Of a DNA stretch of 64,000 bases, positions 58,955-63,219 are shown piece by piece (positions within the stretch are counted from its first letter, which is position 1; every line of letters begins with the position of its first letter). The position numbers and the translations under genes are program-made. Under the pieces are notes generated by a model. It did not search any database, was not told the origin of the DNA, and worked only from the letters and a program-made list of their open reading frames with translations. Source of the DNA: Microbulbifer sp. ALW1 (GTDB taxonomy: Bacteria > Pseudomonadota > Gammaproteobacteria > Pseudomonadales > Cellvibrionaceae); contig NZ_CP047569.1 in NCBI RefSeq assembly GCF_009903625.1, positions 1,396,501-1,460,500 of the forward strand, given 5' to 3'.

Positions 58955-59066
58955 GGCGGGGTGCTGGGTATTTGTTTTCAGAAGCGTCGGCGACAGGGAC
59001 GTCGCCGACGCAGCGTACAGGGATGTATTCACAGCGGTTCTGAAAACAAATACCCAGTGCCTCGCC
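58955..59066 (+). repeat. Nested-hairpin repeat, copy A (between ribB and ribH)
   Basis: Outer arms 58955-58983 and 59038-59066 can pair over 29 positions in RNA with three G-U wobbles; 20 bp (58964-58983 with 59038-59057) are perfect in DNA. Inside are hairpin 1 (GCGTCGGCGAC/GTCGCCGACGC, loop AGGGAC, 58984-59011) and a 26-nt segment (59012-59037) with a small TACA/TGTA hairpin around GGGA. It matches the layout of copies B and C. Confidence 0.85.
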
Positions 59067-59119
59067 GCCACTGACGCGGGACCGAAGCTCAAACCGGGCC
59101 CGAAGTGGGATAACCGAAA

Positions 59120-59602
59120 ATGGAAAAGATCATGAGTAATATCAAAGTAATCGAAGGGGATTTCGTAGGCAGCACCGGTAAATACGCGCTGCTGGTGAGC
59201 CGCTGGAACAGCTTCGTTGTAGAAAGCCTGAAAGGCGGTGCCCTCGATACTCTGCGTCGCAAAGGCATCAAAGAAGAAGACATCACCATCTACTACGCCC
59301 CCGGCGCCTTCGAATTCCCGCTGGCCGCGCAGAAAATTGCCGAAACCAAAAAATTCGACGCAGTGATCGCCCTCGGCGCAGTCATCCGTGGTGGCACCCC
59401 GCACTTCGAATACGTCGCCGGCGAATGCACCAAAGGACTCGCCCAGGTCTCCATGAACACCGGCATTCCTGTGACCTTCGGCGTACTCACCGTAGACTCC
59501 ATCGAACAAGCCATCGAGCGCTCCGGCACCAAAGCCGGCAACAAAGGCTGTGAAGCCGCCGAGACCGCCCTCGAAATGGTCTCCCTGATCAGCAAAATCT
59601 GA
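59120..59602 (+). CDS. ribH: 6,7-dimethyl-8-ribityllumazine synthase
   Basis: 160 residues from the first ATG (156 from the alternative ATG at 59132, which also has a purine-rich leader). Typical lumazine synthase: RWNSFVVESLKGGALDTLRRKG, YAPGAFEFPLAAQKIA, ALGAVIRGGTPHFEYVAGE with the catalytic His95, and VTFGVLTVDSIEQAIERSGTKAGNKGCEAA. It condenses the products of RibB and RibA-RibD into lumazine, and assembles into icosahedral or pentameric shells. It is separated from ribB by a 209-bp gap that contains the copy A repeat and followed after 16 bp by nusB. Confidence 0.97.
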   Translation: MEKIMSNIKVIEGDFVGSTGKYALLVSRWNSFVVESLKGGALDTLRRKGIKEEDITIYYAPGAFEFPLAAQKIAETKKFDAVIALGAVIRGGTPHFEYVAGECTKGLAQVSMNTGIPVTFGVLTVDSIEQAIERSGTKAGNKGCEAAETALEMVSLISKI

Positions 59603-59618
59603 TTGAGAAACGACTGAA

Positions 59619-60059
59619 ATGACCGTAACCGCATCCGCCCGCCGCAAGGCACGCCACTACGCCATGCAGGCCCTGTATCAGTGGCAAATGGCAGGCTCCA
59701 ACCTGAACGCCATCGAAGCCGAGTTTCATGCCGACAACGACATGACCAAAACCGACGTGGCCTACTTCCGCGAGCTGCTCCACGGCGTGGCAAAAAACCT
59801 CGATGAAATCGAAGGAACCTACAGCCAGTACCTCGACCGCGATGTTGAAGAACTCGACCCGGTATCCCGCGCCCTGCTGCGCATGTCCACCTTCGAGATG
59901 AAAAACCGCGTCGATGTACCCTACAAAGTCGTGATCAACGAAGCTGTCGCCCTGGCGAAAAAATTCGGCCCCACCGATGCCTTCAAATTTATCAATGGCA
60001 TCCTCGACAAAGTGGCTCTGAGCGAGCGCAGTGTCGAAGTAAAGGCCGACAAAGGCTAA
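59619..60059 (+). CDS. nusB: Transcription antitermination factor NusB
   Basis: 146 residues, all-helical. Family features: ARRKARHYAMQALYQWQMAG at the N-terminus (Arg-rich RNA-binding face), FRELLHGVAKNLDEIE, LDPVSRALLRMSTFEM, YKVVINEAVALAKKFGPTDAFKFINGILDKVA. It joins NusE (S10) on boxA RNA in rRNA antitermination. Directly downstream of ribH, the usual gammaproteobacterial order. Confidence 0.97.
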   Translation: MTVTASARRKARHYAMQALYQWQMAGSNLNAIEAEFHADNDMTKTDVAYFRELLHGVAKNLDEIEGTYSQYLDRDVEELDPVSRALLRMSTFEMKNRVDVPYKVVINEAVALAKKFGPTDAFKFINGILDKVALSERSVEVKADKG

Positions 60060-60066
60060 GCCTCTT

Positions 60067-61047
60067 ATGCCCGGCCCCGGTGAATTTGAACTGATTCGGG
60101 AGTACTTTTCCTCCCGCTTTCAGGCCGGAACCCAGCCGGGCCATGTCGCTGATGGCAGTGCCGGAAACGGTGTTGTACTGGGGATCGGCGACGACTGCGC
60201 ACTGCTGGCGCCGCCGCCCGGAAAACTGCTCGCCACCAGTGTCGATACCTTGGTGGCCGATGTACATTTTCCGGCAAAGGCCGATCCCTACCGTATCGCC
60301 AGCCGCGCACTGCGTGTGAATCTCTCCGACCTCGCGGCCATGAACGCCCAGCCCCTGTGGTTTACCCTCGCGCTCACTTTGCCGCAAAGTAATCCGGAAT
60401 GGCTGGAACCGTTTGCCCGCGGCCTTGCAGAAACCGCGCACCAGTACGGTATTACCCTGATAGGCGGCGATACCACCAAAGGCCCGCTGTCGATCACCAT
60501 CCAGGTCACCGGTGCCTGCGACAGGCCACTGCGGCGCGATGGCGCAAGCGCCGGTGATATCATTTTTGTCACCAATCAACTGGGCGCCGCCGCAGCCGCG
60601 CTGCCTATTGTGCTCGGAGAGATCGCGGGAAGTCCGGAGCAACAGCAGCAGACAGCGGCGTCCTACTACTTCCCCGAACCGCAATTTGCGGTGGCCCGGG
60701 CCATTGGTCCCTATGCCAGTGCCGCACTGGATATTTCCGACGGTCTGCTCGGTGATCTCGGGCATATCTGCGAAGCGAGCAGCCTGGGTGCCGAACTGGA
60801 GCTGGATAATTTCCCGGTCGCGCAACTGGCACAGTCGATGAATGCGGACACAGCGCTGGAAGCCGCGCTCACCGGCGGCGACGATTACCAGCTCTGCTTT
60901 ACCTTGCCCGAACAACACCTGAGCACGATCGAAAGCCTGAAGCTGCCGGTTACCGCTGTGGGTCGTATCGTTTCCAAGCCGGGTATCCGCTGCCGCTTGC
61001 ACGACAAATCCTGGCAGCCAGGCAGCGCCAGCTATCAACATTTTTAA
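60067..61047 (+). CDS. thiL: Thiamine-monophosphate kinase
   Basis: 326 residues. Typical order of motifs: EFELIREYFS, GIGDDCALL (metal and ATP site), SVDTLVADVHFP, LRVNLSDLAAMNAQPLWFTLAL, GGDTTKGPLSITIQVTG, ALDISDGLLGDLGHIC, and late GGDDYQLCFT. It phosphorylates thiamine monophosphate to the diphosphate cofactor. Seven bp after nusB, and ending just before pgpA, as in E. coli. Confidence 0.96.
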   Translation: MPGPGEFELIREYFSSRFQAGTQPGHVADGSAGNGVVLGIGDDCALLAPPPGKLLATSVDTLVADVHFPAKADPYRIASRALRVNLSDLAAMNAQPLWFTLALTLPQSNPEWLEPFARGLAETAHQYGITLIGGDTTKGPLSITIQVTGACDRPLRRDGASAGDIIFVTNQLGAAAAALPIVLGEIAGSPEQQQQTAASYYFPEPQFAVARAIGPYASAALDISDGLLGDLGHICEASSLGAELELDNFPVAQLAQSMNADTALEAALTGGDDYQLCFTLPEQHLSTIESLKLPVTAVGRIVSKPGIRCRLHDKSWQPGSASYQHF

Positions 61048-62226: not shown

Positions 62227-62258
62227 TCACGCACATTGATGGAACGTGAGGTATCAGT

Positions 62259-62867
62259 TTGACCATTCGCTATGTGGAATCCTCCAAGCTGCCAACTTCC
62301 TGGGGCATGTTTGAGATGCACGGTTTTGAGGAAGTGGAGACCGGCAAGGAGCATGTTGTTCTGAGCATGGGTGACCTGGATACGGATACGCCGGTATTGG
62401 CCCGTATTCACTCCGAGTGTCTGACTGGAGATGCTTTGTTTTCCCTGCGCTGTGATTGCGGTGCGCAGTTGCAATATGCGTTACATCGGATTGCCACTGA
62501 AGGACGTGGTGCGGTGTTTTACCTGCGTCAGGAAGGGCGAGGCATCGGTTTGCTGAACAAGATCCGTGCGTACAAACTGCAGGATTGTGGTGCCGATACG
62601 GTAGAAGCCAATGAACGTTTGGGCTTTGGTGCGGATATGCGGGATTACTCCATTCTCAAACCAATGATCGACCATTTGGGTATCAAGTCCATTCGCCTGA
62701 TGACGAATAACCCACGCAAGGTAAAAGCGTTGGAGGATCTTGGTATTGAAGTGACCGAGCGTCTGCCACATCAGTCTGGACGTAATCCGCACAACACGAA
62801 TTACCTTTCTACCAAGAAAGGGAAGCTCGGCCATTTGTTTGATGATGAAGAAGGCTCAGAGAAGTAA
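62259..62867 (+). CDS. ribA: GTP cyclohydrolase II
   Basis: 202 residues, TTG start with GAGG eight bases before. Intact zinc motif and active site: HSECLTGDALFSLRCDCGAQLQYAL gives the C-x9-C-x-C ligands, and YLRQEGRGIGLLNKI the GTP-binding and catalytic loop, with LMTNNPRKVKALEDLGIEV near the end. It opens GTP to the first riboflavin precursor. It is the working partner of the RibB-RibX fusion, whose own cyclohydrolase half is degenerate. The gene is followed by two repeat elements. Confidence 0.96.
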   Translation: MTIRYVESSKLPTSWGMFEMHGFEEVETGKEHVVLSMGDLDTDTPVLARIHSECLTGDALFSLRCDCGAQLQYALHRIATEGRGAVFYLRQEGRGIGLLNKIRAYKLQDCGADTVEANERLGFGADMRDYSILKPMIDHLGIKSIRLMTNNPRKVKALEDLGIEVTERLPHQSGRNPHNTNYLSTKKGKLGHLFDDEEGSEK

Positions 62868-62917
62868 CTAAAAAACGGCCGTTAAAGCATCGGTAATATA
62901 TAAGAATTCAAATTGAA

Positions 62918-63030
62918 GGCCTCGGTACTGGCGACCGTTTCCGGGACCGTCCGCGGCCAGGACGGCCGCAGCCGAGCCCCCATGGATGGGTTTACGGCGT
63001 GTCCCGGAAACGGTTGCCAGTAGCGGGGCC
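62918..63030 (+). repeat. Nested-hairpin repeat, copy B
   Basis: Outer arms 62918-62947 and 63001-63030 pair over 30 positions with one mismatch and two G-U. Inside is hairpin 1 (GCGGCC/GGCCGC, loop AGGAC, within 62948-62974), then a 26-nt core (62975-63000) starting AGCCCCCATGGATGGG and ending TTTACGGCGT. Confidence 0.85.
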
Positions 63031-63100
63031 GCCACTCCCCAGGCTACGAAGTCCTCCTAATACCCCGGAGCTTCACTTTCTTGCGGTATAGGTGGCGAGC

Positions 63101-63219
63101 CTGCTACCGGTGACTTTATGCGAGACACGAGCTAGGCGCCCCCCCCGTAAACCCATCCATGGGGGCTCTTCTAAAACATCCCTGTTTTAGAAGGTCTCGC
63201 ATAAAGTCCCCGGTATCAG
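63101..63219 (-). repeat. Nested-hairpin repeat, copy C, inverted
   Basis: Read on the minus strand: outer arms 63219-63194 and 63126-63101 (26 positions, two mismatches), hairpin 1 CTTCTAAAACA/TGTTTTAGAAG with loop GGGA (63193-63168), then AGCCCCCATGGATGGG and TTTACGG as in copy B, followed by a G-run. Confidence 0.85.

Follow-up and report, generated by a model that had tools for sequence, protein, structure and literature searches.

A GGA-hairpin palindromic repeat beside riboflavin genes of Microbulbifer sp. ALW1, probably a member of a class-wide family that includes YPAL/RU-2 of Yersinia

Three palindromic elements, termed here A, B and C, lie within a stretch of 64,000 nucleotides from Microbulbifer sp. 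ALW1 (NZ_CP047569.1, positions 1,396,501 to 1,460,500; hereafter ‘the window’, to which the coordinates in Table 1 refer). Element A sits between ribBA and ribH, 42 nt past the upstream stop codon, and element B, in a riboflavin-gene region, 48 nt past that of ribA (gene names read from translations); element C is inverted relative to B and lies 22 nt past the stop of a leftward gene whose translation, read by eye, is glycoside-hydrolase-like. No tRNA or tmRNA was found in the window, nor any match to the families of Rfam 15 at gathering score. We propose that the three elements are probably the Microbulbifer members of a superfamily of non-autonomous palindromic mobile repeats, which extends across the class Gammaproteobacteria and of which YPAL/RU-2 is the described member.

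An earlier note on this DNA had described three nested-hairpin repeats of common layout. All three could be located and folded as described, with RNA minimum free energies of -77.1, -87.2 and -70.7 kcal/mol for A, B and C respectively (z = -9.6, -8.8 and -7.7 against dinucleotide shuffles); folding as single-stranded DNA (ssDNA) is also possible, on both strands. The layout runs from GAAGG through a 5' outer arm, hairpin 1, AGC, hairpin 2, TTYAC, NGC and a 3' arm to CCGCCAC, the GAAGG and CCGCCAC ends being those of the Microbulbifer copies. Hairpin 2 comprises four pairs with its loop within CANGGATG, and in predicted folds NGC is able to pair with the GC of AGC, bulging TTYAC. The compensatory change reported for the small stem between A and B (TACA/TGTA against CCCA/TGGG) is real, as is the agreement between B and C, which holds over AGCCCCCATGGATGGGTTTACGG; absent from that description is an extra GGGGGGCGCCTAGCT after ACGG in element C, and some other copies also have this sequence, or a near form of it, inserted ahead of the last CG.

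Table 1. Positions of elements A, B and C and of their parts within the window
Feature	Position	Strand	Basis
Element A (A1 subfamily)	58953..59071	+	covariance-model match 118.9 bits, fold, gene context
A 5' outer arm	58955..58983	+	sequence, fold
A hairpin 1, loop inside ACAGGGACGT	58984..59011	+	sequence, fold
A conserved core AGCGTACAGGGATGTATTCACAGCG, containing exact CsrA SELEX 12-mer GTACAGGGATGT	59012..59036	+	sequence, pattern match
A 3' outer arm	59037..59066	+	sequence, fold
Element B (B1 subfamily)	62916..63035	+	model match 121.0 bits, context
B 5' outer arm	62918..62947	+	sequence, fold
B hairpin 1 GCGGCC-AGGAC-GGCCGC	62953..62969	+	sequence, fold
B conserved core AGCCCCCATGGATGGGTTTACGGCG	62975..62999	+	sequence, pattern match
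B 3' outer arm	63000..63030	+	sequence, fold
Element C (B3-type hairpin 1, 15-nt insert)	63092..63225	-	model match 71.6 bits, context
C hairpin 1 CTTCTAAAACAGGGATGTTTTAGAAG	63168..63193	-	sequence, fold
C conserved core AGCCCCCATGGATGGGTTTACGG	63145..63167	-	sequence, pattern match
C recurrent insert GGGGGGCGCCTAGCT, present in further copies too	63130..63144	-	sequence

The host genome (G000; 4.68 Mb, one contig) holds many further copies. The exact core pattern matches it 88 times, and the same pattern read backwards not once; a covariance model built from 54 copies and searched against the genome, as the earlier note had proposed, gave 138 matches among the best 150 candidates scored, which, less 16 antisense echoes, corresponds to at least 122 distinct elements, 91 of the 122 lying in the first half of the contig. 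Matches occur in 46 of 48 genomes of the genus (counts were taken from the best 74 candidates of each genome, such that high counts are lower bounds). Across the order, 93 genomes out of 390, belonging to 44 of 142 genera, carry the strict core, where the reversed pattern used as a control has no match, and in a sample of the phylum it is found in 25 of 398 genomes, all within the Gammaproteobacteria. Carriers among the matches listed (at least 119 stretches) include Stenotrophomonas, Xanthomonas, Halomonas, Marinobacter, Shewanella, Alteromonas, Rheinheimera and Vibrio.

Outside the class a single degenerate copy was seen, which occurs in two records of plasmids from Alphaproteobacteria; in the conjugative plasmid pDCA (L334, 6001-6056) it lies beside genes for an ISAs1-family transposase and a haloalkane dehalogenase. 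Half of element B was matched by two plasmid records and element A by none, and A, as the only query, had no match in phage records either; four stretches of IMG/VR viral contigs were matched. Two draft contigs end inside or beside elements (G019:C94:1-23 and G785:C5:19-43), hinting that assembly of draft genomes may break off at these stable hairpins and that drafts probably undercount copies. One locus (L124, genome G089) carries six same-strand model matches, one of them partial, which lie 227-247 bp apart between about 1462 and 2700 and form a tandem array.

Pairing between the arms was assessed in the 54 copies of the model, drawn from 98 copies delimited automatically in the host genome. 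Partners are able to pair in 97.1% of cells, a value that falls to at most 51.2% if the partner is slid by one column; the covariation score is 0.615 as opposed to 0.203 when shuffled, and both sides have changed in 387 cells, compared with 118 in shuffled alignments, with none of 500 shuffles reaching the observed value. The covariation is thus overwhelming, and a single-strand structure strongly supported; the complementary change in the arms that the earlier note had reported from three copies holds across this wider set. Analyses of arms, position and context made use of 105 of the 122 copies (111 model matches less five antisense echoes and one cut match). Non-Watson-Crick cells in their arms comprise 116 G-U and nine A-C, or 71:9 with one conserved G-U column omitted, any p-value on this ratio being only a guide, as the rows share ancestry. 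This excess identifies the GGA-loop strand as the one kept foldable, as RNA or ssDNA, into a long outer stem bearing two GGA hairpins.

The earlier note recognised no named family, and here it missed a relative. The 168-nt RU-2 sequence of Y. pestis, as printed by Delihas (2007; PMC2759123), who uses RU-2 for what De Gregorio (2006) called YPAL, contains AGCCTACATGGATGTATTTACGGCG and has a hairpin 1, GCGCCAAGGATGGCGC, with CAAGGATG; when folded, it adopts the same layout. Scored against a profile built on 157 copies in the loci fetched, it matches with 38.6 bits and an E-value of 4e-9, the best of 300 shuffles reaching an E-value of 10. Both share the core AGC-NNN-CANGGATG-NN-TTYAC-NGCG as well as a hairpin 1 with a CANGGATG loop, the two GGA motifs are 24 nt apart in RU-2 and 22-24 nt apart in most class-wide copies, and each is an intergenic repeat that forms one long hairpin with internal inverted repeats. 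The two differ in their arms, which by eye are unrelated in sequence, in the spread of the present repeat far beyond Yersinia and Erwinia, and in length (168 bp, against mostly 117-122 bp here and no more than 151 bp with inserts), although the true ends may lie further out; length was not counted as defining the superfamily. With its exact core, YPAL/RU-2 is a named relative, of which the repeat in the window would be a shorter variant, and membership of a common YPAL superfamily appears well supported by core and fold.

A second Yersinia entry, the small RNA (sRNA) Ysr224 (RF02770), matches several of 16 loci searched, weakly (the best match scores 32 bits where the cut-off is 70, with an E-value of 0.00028) and on the reverse strand of the elements; other Rfam matches below gathering score in these loci were taken for chance. 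The Ysr224 model looks like the reverse strand of the repeat, and since Ysr224 is among the most abundant annotated sRNAs in a survey (PMC9029176), its high counts may reflect the repeat as opposed to an sRNA gene. In this way a Yersinia repeat, an Rfam ‘sRNA’ and many unnamed hairpins of the class would be joined into one family with one core. The bacterial miniature inverted-repeat transposable elements (MITEs) ERIC, NEMIS/Correia and RUP are also non-coding intergenic hairpin repeats, of about 100-170 bp (PMC2229807, in part); they are set apart here, ahead of any sequence comparison, in that no TA-bordered terminal repeats were noticed in the present elements. Literature searches, which left out most subscription journals, found no paper that connects YPAL with either the Microbulbifer elements or CsrA, and none on Microbulbifer intergenic repeats, on palindromic repeats together with RsmA, or on CsrA binding with Stenotrophomonas or Halomonas.

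Genomic positions were judged against genes predicted by a simple codon-usage caller. All 105 copies are intergenic, with overlaps into predicted genes never exceeding 40 nt, and most sit just past a stop codon: the nearest lies within 60 nt in 75 copies and within 100 nt in 83, in keeping with YPAL, which is reportedly found just past stop codons and said to raise upstream transcript levels. Flanking genes, relative to the element, are (+,+) for 42 copies, (-,-) for 32, convergent for 15, divergent for three and unclear for 13 (base rates of the gap types were not measured); the two orientations in co-directional gaps do not differ (p 0.30). Amongst all 122 elements, the 21 successive pairs that start less than 700 bp apart are without exception inverted, 16 of them with their 5' ends facing.

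Such positions could be read as those of a bidirectional transcription terminator or insulator hairpin, given the sites just past stops, the larger number of convergent than divergent gaps, and the foldability of both strands. We find this highly doubtful: the stems of A, B and C all lack a run of T behind them, several relatives already have an ordinary terminator-like hairpin beside the element (judged by eye), and the conserved GGA loops would be left unexplained. The occurrence of copies after stops in either orientation fits an element mobilised in trans better than an RNA acting in sense from the 3' untranslated region. A mobile element, which the earlier note had offered as an explanation beside a structured RNA, fits the copy number, positions and distribution; mobility itself we infer from spread, turnover and the literature on YPAL, which is described as recently mobile, with target duplications of 3-26 bp and targets that span or adjoin dyad symmetry (PMC2229807, in the part available).

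Of the 1470 cells that make up the inner 14 arm pairs of the 105 copies, 1449 (98.6%) are Watson-Crick, and this near-perfect pairing is kept despite an entropy of 1.57-1.94 bits in four inner-arm columns. Hairpin 1 and the arms had been called unrelated between copies, which goes too far as a whole: genome-wide, hairpin 1 falls into a few subfamilies, with 18 of 105 copies outside them, and the arms have a lineage consensus, CCGGG...TTTxC; the highly variable yet pairing segment that this consensus flanks is as had been described. Among the 87 copies assigned to subfamilies, interiors are 88-94% alike within a subfamily (a figure partly built in, as hairpin 1 defines the subfamilies) and inner 5' arms 58-74%.

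Orthologous elements behave differently. Between two sister genomes (G001 and G003, whose aligned DNA is 90.7% identical), four shared elements differ by four arm substitutions, none of them compensated, whereas the ratio of compensated to non-Watson-Crick cells between copies is 493:21 for the fourteen columns of the inner arm, 714:191 for the whole arm and 238:5 for a set of four columns; set against the orthologs' 0:4, this gives p 4e-6 with the inner-arm ratio and 0.002 with the whole-arm ratio, or p 0.0019 if only the two inner ortholog changes are used. Watson-Crick inner arms, compensated between copies, together with uncompensated changes between orthologs suggest that one arm is copied from the other, besides any selection, and that new copies would begin with matched arms which then decay. 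The earlier reading of arm covariation as selection on structure therefore stands as regards a structure in one strand, and probably falls short as its sole cause. The contrast renders the origin of the arms directly testable.

It could instead be that the slots are old and immobile, with arms that slowly coevolve in place for structure and interiors homogenised by gene conversion. Related species do have elements in the same gaps, and in the ribBA-ribH element, which G001 and G003 share with identical arms and flanks, the core has been exchanged for the insert form. The same gap, compared across relatives (ten readable gaps with a complete element, from 40 genomes), has in G025 a 5' arm like that of G000 joined to a 3' arm like that of G028. 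The uncompensated ortholog changes argue the other way, as do the scarcity of wobble in the inner arm, the patchy distribution across the class, and slots with wholly different elements. Over 400 kb compared, G001 has seven elements and G003 eight, and beyond the four shared pairs two intergenic regions, with three elements, hold different elements, and one element is truncated in G001; of the 98 delimited elements of the host genome, 13 could be mapped to 400 kb of G032, where eight sites are filled, three hold remnants or nothing and two are unclear; a filled site as a rule carries a different type or different arms, and at one (L081) the orientation is reversed. Purely local coevolution thus seems to us quite unlikely.

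Synthesising these observations, we propose a model in which the mobile repeat would spread by insertion beside gene ends, mobilised in trans by an enzyme of host or element origin that recognises the single strand in its folded state. On movement or conversion of the unit the outer arms would be renewed as perfect inverted copies, which would then decay through point mutation, and the two GGA loops would be the recognised feature, read either by the mobilising enzyme or by the RNA-binding protein CsrA/RsmA. To our knowledge, such self-templating rewriting of arms has not been described for bacterial MITEs. As far as our searches show, three sets of observations are new: the CsrA-type loop of hairpin 1 at near-constant spacing, together with exact SELEX sites that all lie in the repeat; the Watson-Crick inner arms between copies as against uncompensated orthologs; and close neighbours that are inverted in every case.

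Several points weigh against a mobile superfamily. Some copies share arms, which is also what ordinary copying or slow divergence should produce: for 30 of 435 pairs within subfamily A1, likeness in the inner 5' arm reaches 90% or more. The ortholog comparison is small, at four element pairs, and the mobility of YPAL itself is taken over from published work. No clean empty site was found between G000 and G032 or between G001 and G003, so that insertion ends and target duplications are not seen here. No transposase stood out beside the elements in the 25 largest clusters of neighbouring open reading frames (ORFs; 3088 from 119 loci), which were judged by eye, ahead of any family search, to be ordinary genes. 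Replication-fork bias is likewise lacking (57 of 122 elements, p 0.53; origin and terminus placed by eye from GC skew in sampled stretches), and the count of Y1 transposases does not follow copy number: 45 of 48 genomes of the genus have a Y1 match, and the three that lack one (G004, G012 and G013) carry 21, 51 and 49 elements.

The last two points bear equally on an element of IS200/IS605 or REP/RAYT type, moved as ssDNA by a Y1 HUH transposase. A, B and C do fold as ssDNA, GAAG ahead of the stem resembles the REP tetranucleotides, and the inverted doublets resemble REPINs, which with their RAYTs share with the present repeat a high copy number and palindromes downstream of genes. Saying this, REPs are 20-40 bp long and tagged with GTAG or CGTC (PMC3733652, in part), whereas the unit here exceeds 110 bp, starts with GAAGG and has no such tag, and no Y1-like gene was noticed beside the elements by eye. 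Even with these likenesses and the wide occurrence of Y1 matches in the genus, the idea is distinctly improbable, and a Y1/RAYT mobiliser was rejected, its counts not tracking the element.

What the GGA loops are for may be approached through hairpin 1, which we examined in 146 class-wide copies from 135 loci with at least 400 nt upstream, collected with patterns that fix hairpin 2 only (several species of one genus are included, so not all rows are independent). The motif CA(N)GGANG is present in 118 of the 146 as compared with 20 of 584 control windows, and on the same copies the reversed motif is present in six and its complement in five. The two GGA motifs are 22-24 nt apart in 110 of the 118; a stem of at least seven pairs is formed in 76 of 116 hairpins against 19 of 627 elsewhere, and the 116 comprise 92 distinct sequences. 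The repeat thus has the features looked for in a candidate CsrA-binding RNA, GGA in hairpin loops and two sites at bridging distance, and a transcribed copy might act as a predicted two-site docking platform for CsrA/RsmA on a long stem, either in cis on mRNA stability or jointly as a sponge.

In a binding study (PMC7652899), the consensus from in vitro selection (SELEX) is RUACARGGAUGU, and bridging, which is best above 18 nt, spans distances of 10-63 nt, a range into which the observed spacing falls; A-type copies, element A included, contain the consensus exactly, and all 38 exact 12-mers found in G000 lie inside elements and on the element strand, although, as members of one repeat family, these are not independent. 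A search for csrA in the 390 genomes of the order gave a match in 371. The strict core occurs in 90 of these and in three of the 19 without a csrA match, so that no dependence between core and csrA is visible, missing csrA matches being insecure; three genomes (G000, G017 and G032) gave no csrA match over the cut-off, which is uninformative for G000, where the expected neighbourhood adjoins N bases. Unusually many csrA-family matches were seen in G029 (at least 16), G114 (11), G188 (nine) and G038 (nine).

Other observations tell against recognition by CsrA. Co-directional copies show no bias towards sense (42 of 74); a copy in each of G004, G012 and G013 sits, by eye, between apparent rho-independent terminators of both flanking genes; and the Yersinia family Ysr224 matches the opposite strand. 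We therefore regard distributed CsrA/RsmA docking as possible, if on balance unlikely, and offer predicted CsrA recognition as a specific and cheaply tested hypothesis with real counter-evidence. CsrB/RsmZ-type sRNAs have paired GGA hairpins with CsrA-type loops, and none turned up in the Rfam searches, either in the window or at the 16 loci. TwoAYGGAY (RF01731), for which, along with the reverse complement of Bacillaceae-1, a CsrA reading has been proposed (PMC4333381), shares these paired hairpins and loops; it was absent from the E-value matches of the 16 loci and from the window at gathering score. Unlike both, the present hairpins belong to a multicopy repeat and stand on a long, near-perfect stem.

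Should CsrA bind the GGA loops, many genes would have been tied to a global regulator by a selfish repeat, which would also titrate that regulator; should the loops serve mobility, they would mark the recognition site of the mobilising enzyme. The full combination, in which mobile palindromes across the Gammaproteobacteria bring a two-site CsrA/RsmA platform to gene 3' ends, giving some genomes tens to more than 100 docking sites, and in which each move rewrites the arms as a perfect inverted copy, would in our judgement be unlikely to hold in all its parts.

Finally, individual copies show further variation. At L113, L173 (G008) and L187 (G036), the loop of hairpin 1 is enlarged by a CCGAAGGCGCC...GGAGCGGCCGGACC module, or one near to it, which resembles an inverted second core. 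A second repeat, like TTTCCGCCATCCATGGCGGTCA, is found inside hairpin 1 or alone at L134, L150, L273, L286 and L294 and in the ribBA-ribH gap of G008 (L173), and its complement likewise bears a CATGGATG-type hairpin. At L174 (G020) a deletion between two CAGGGA loops has left a single hairpin. Open frames also cross elements, at window positions 58917-59135 on the + strand and at several other loci, with translations such as ...AYRDVFTA... and ...PRDGFTA..., and peptides from such frames may show up as spurious hypothetical proteins in databases.

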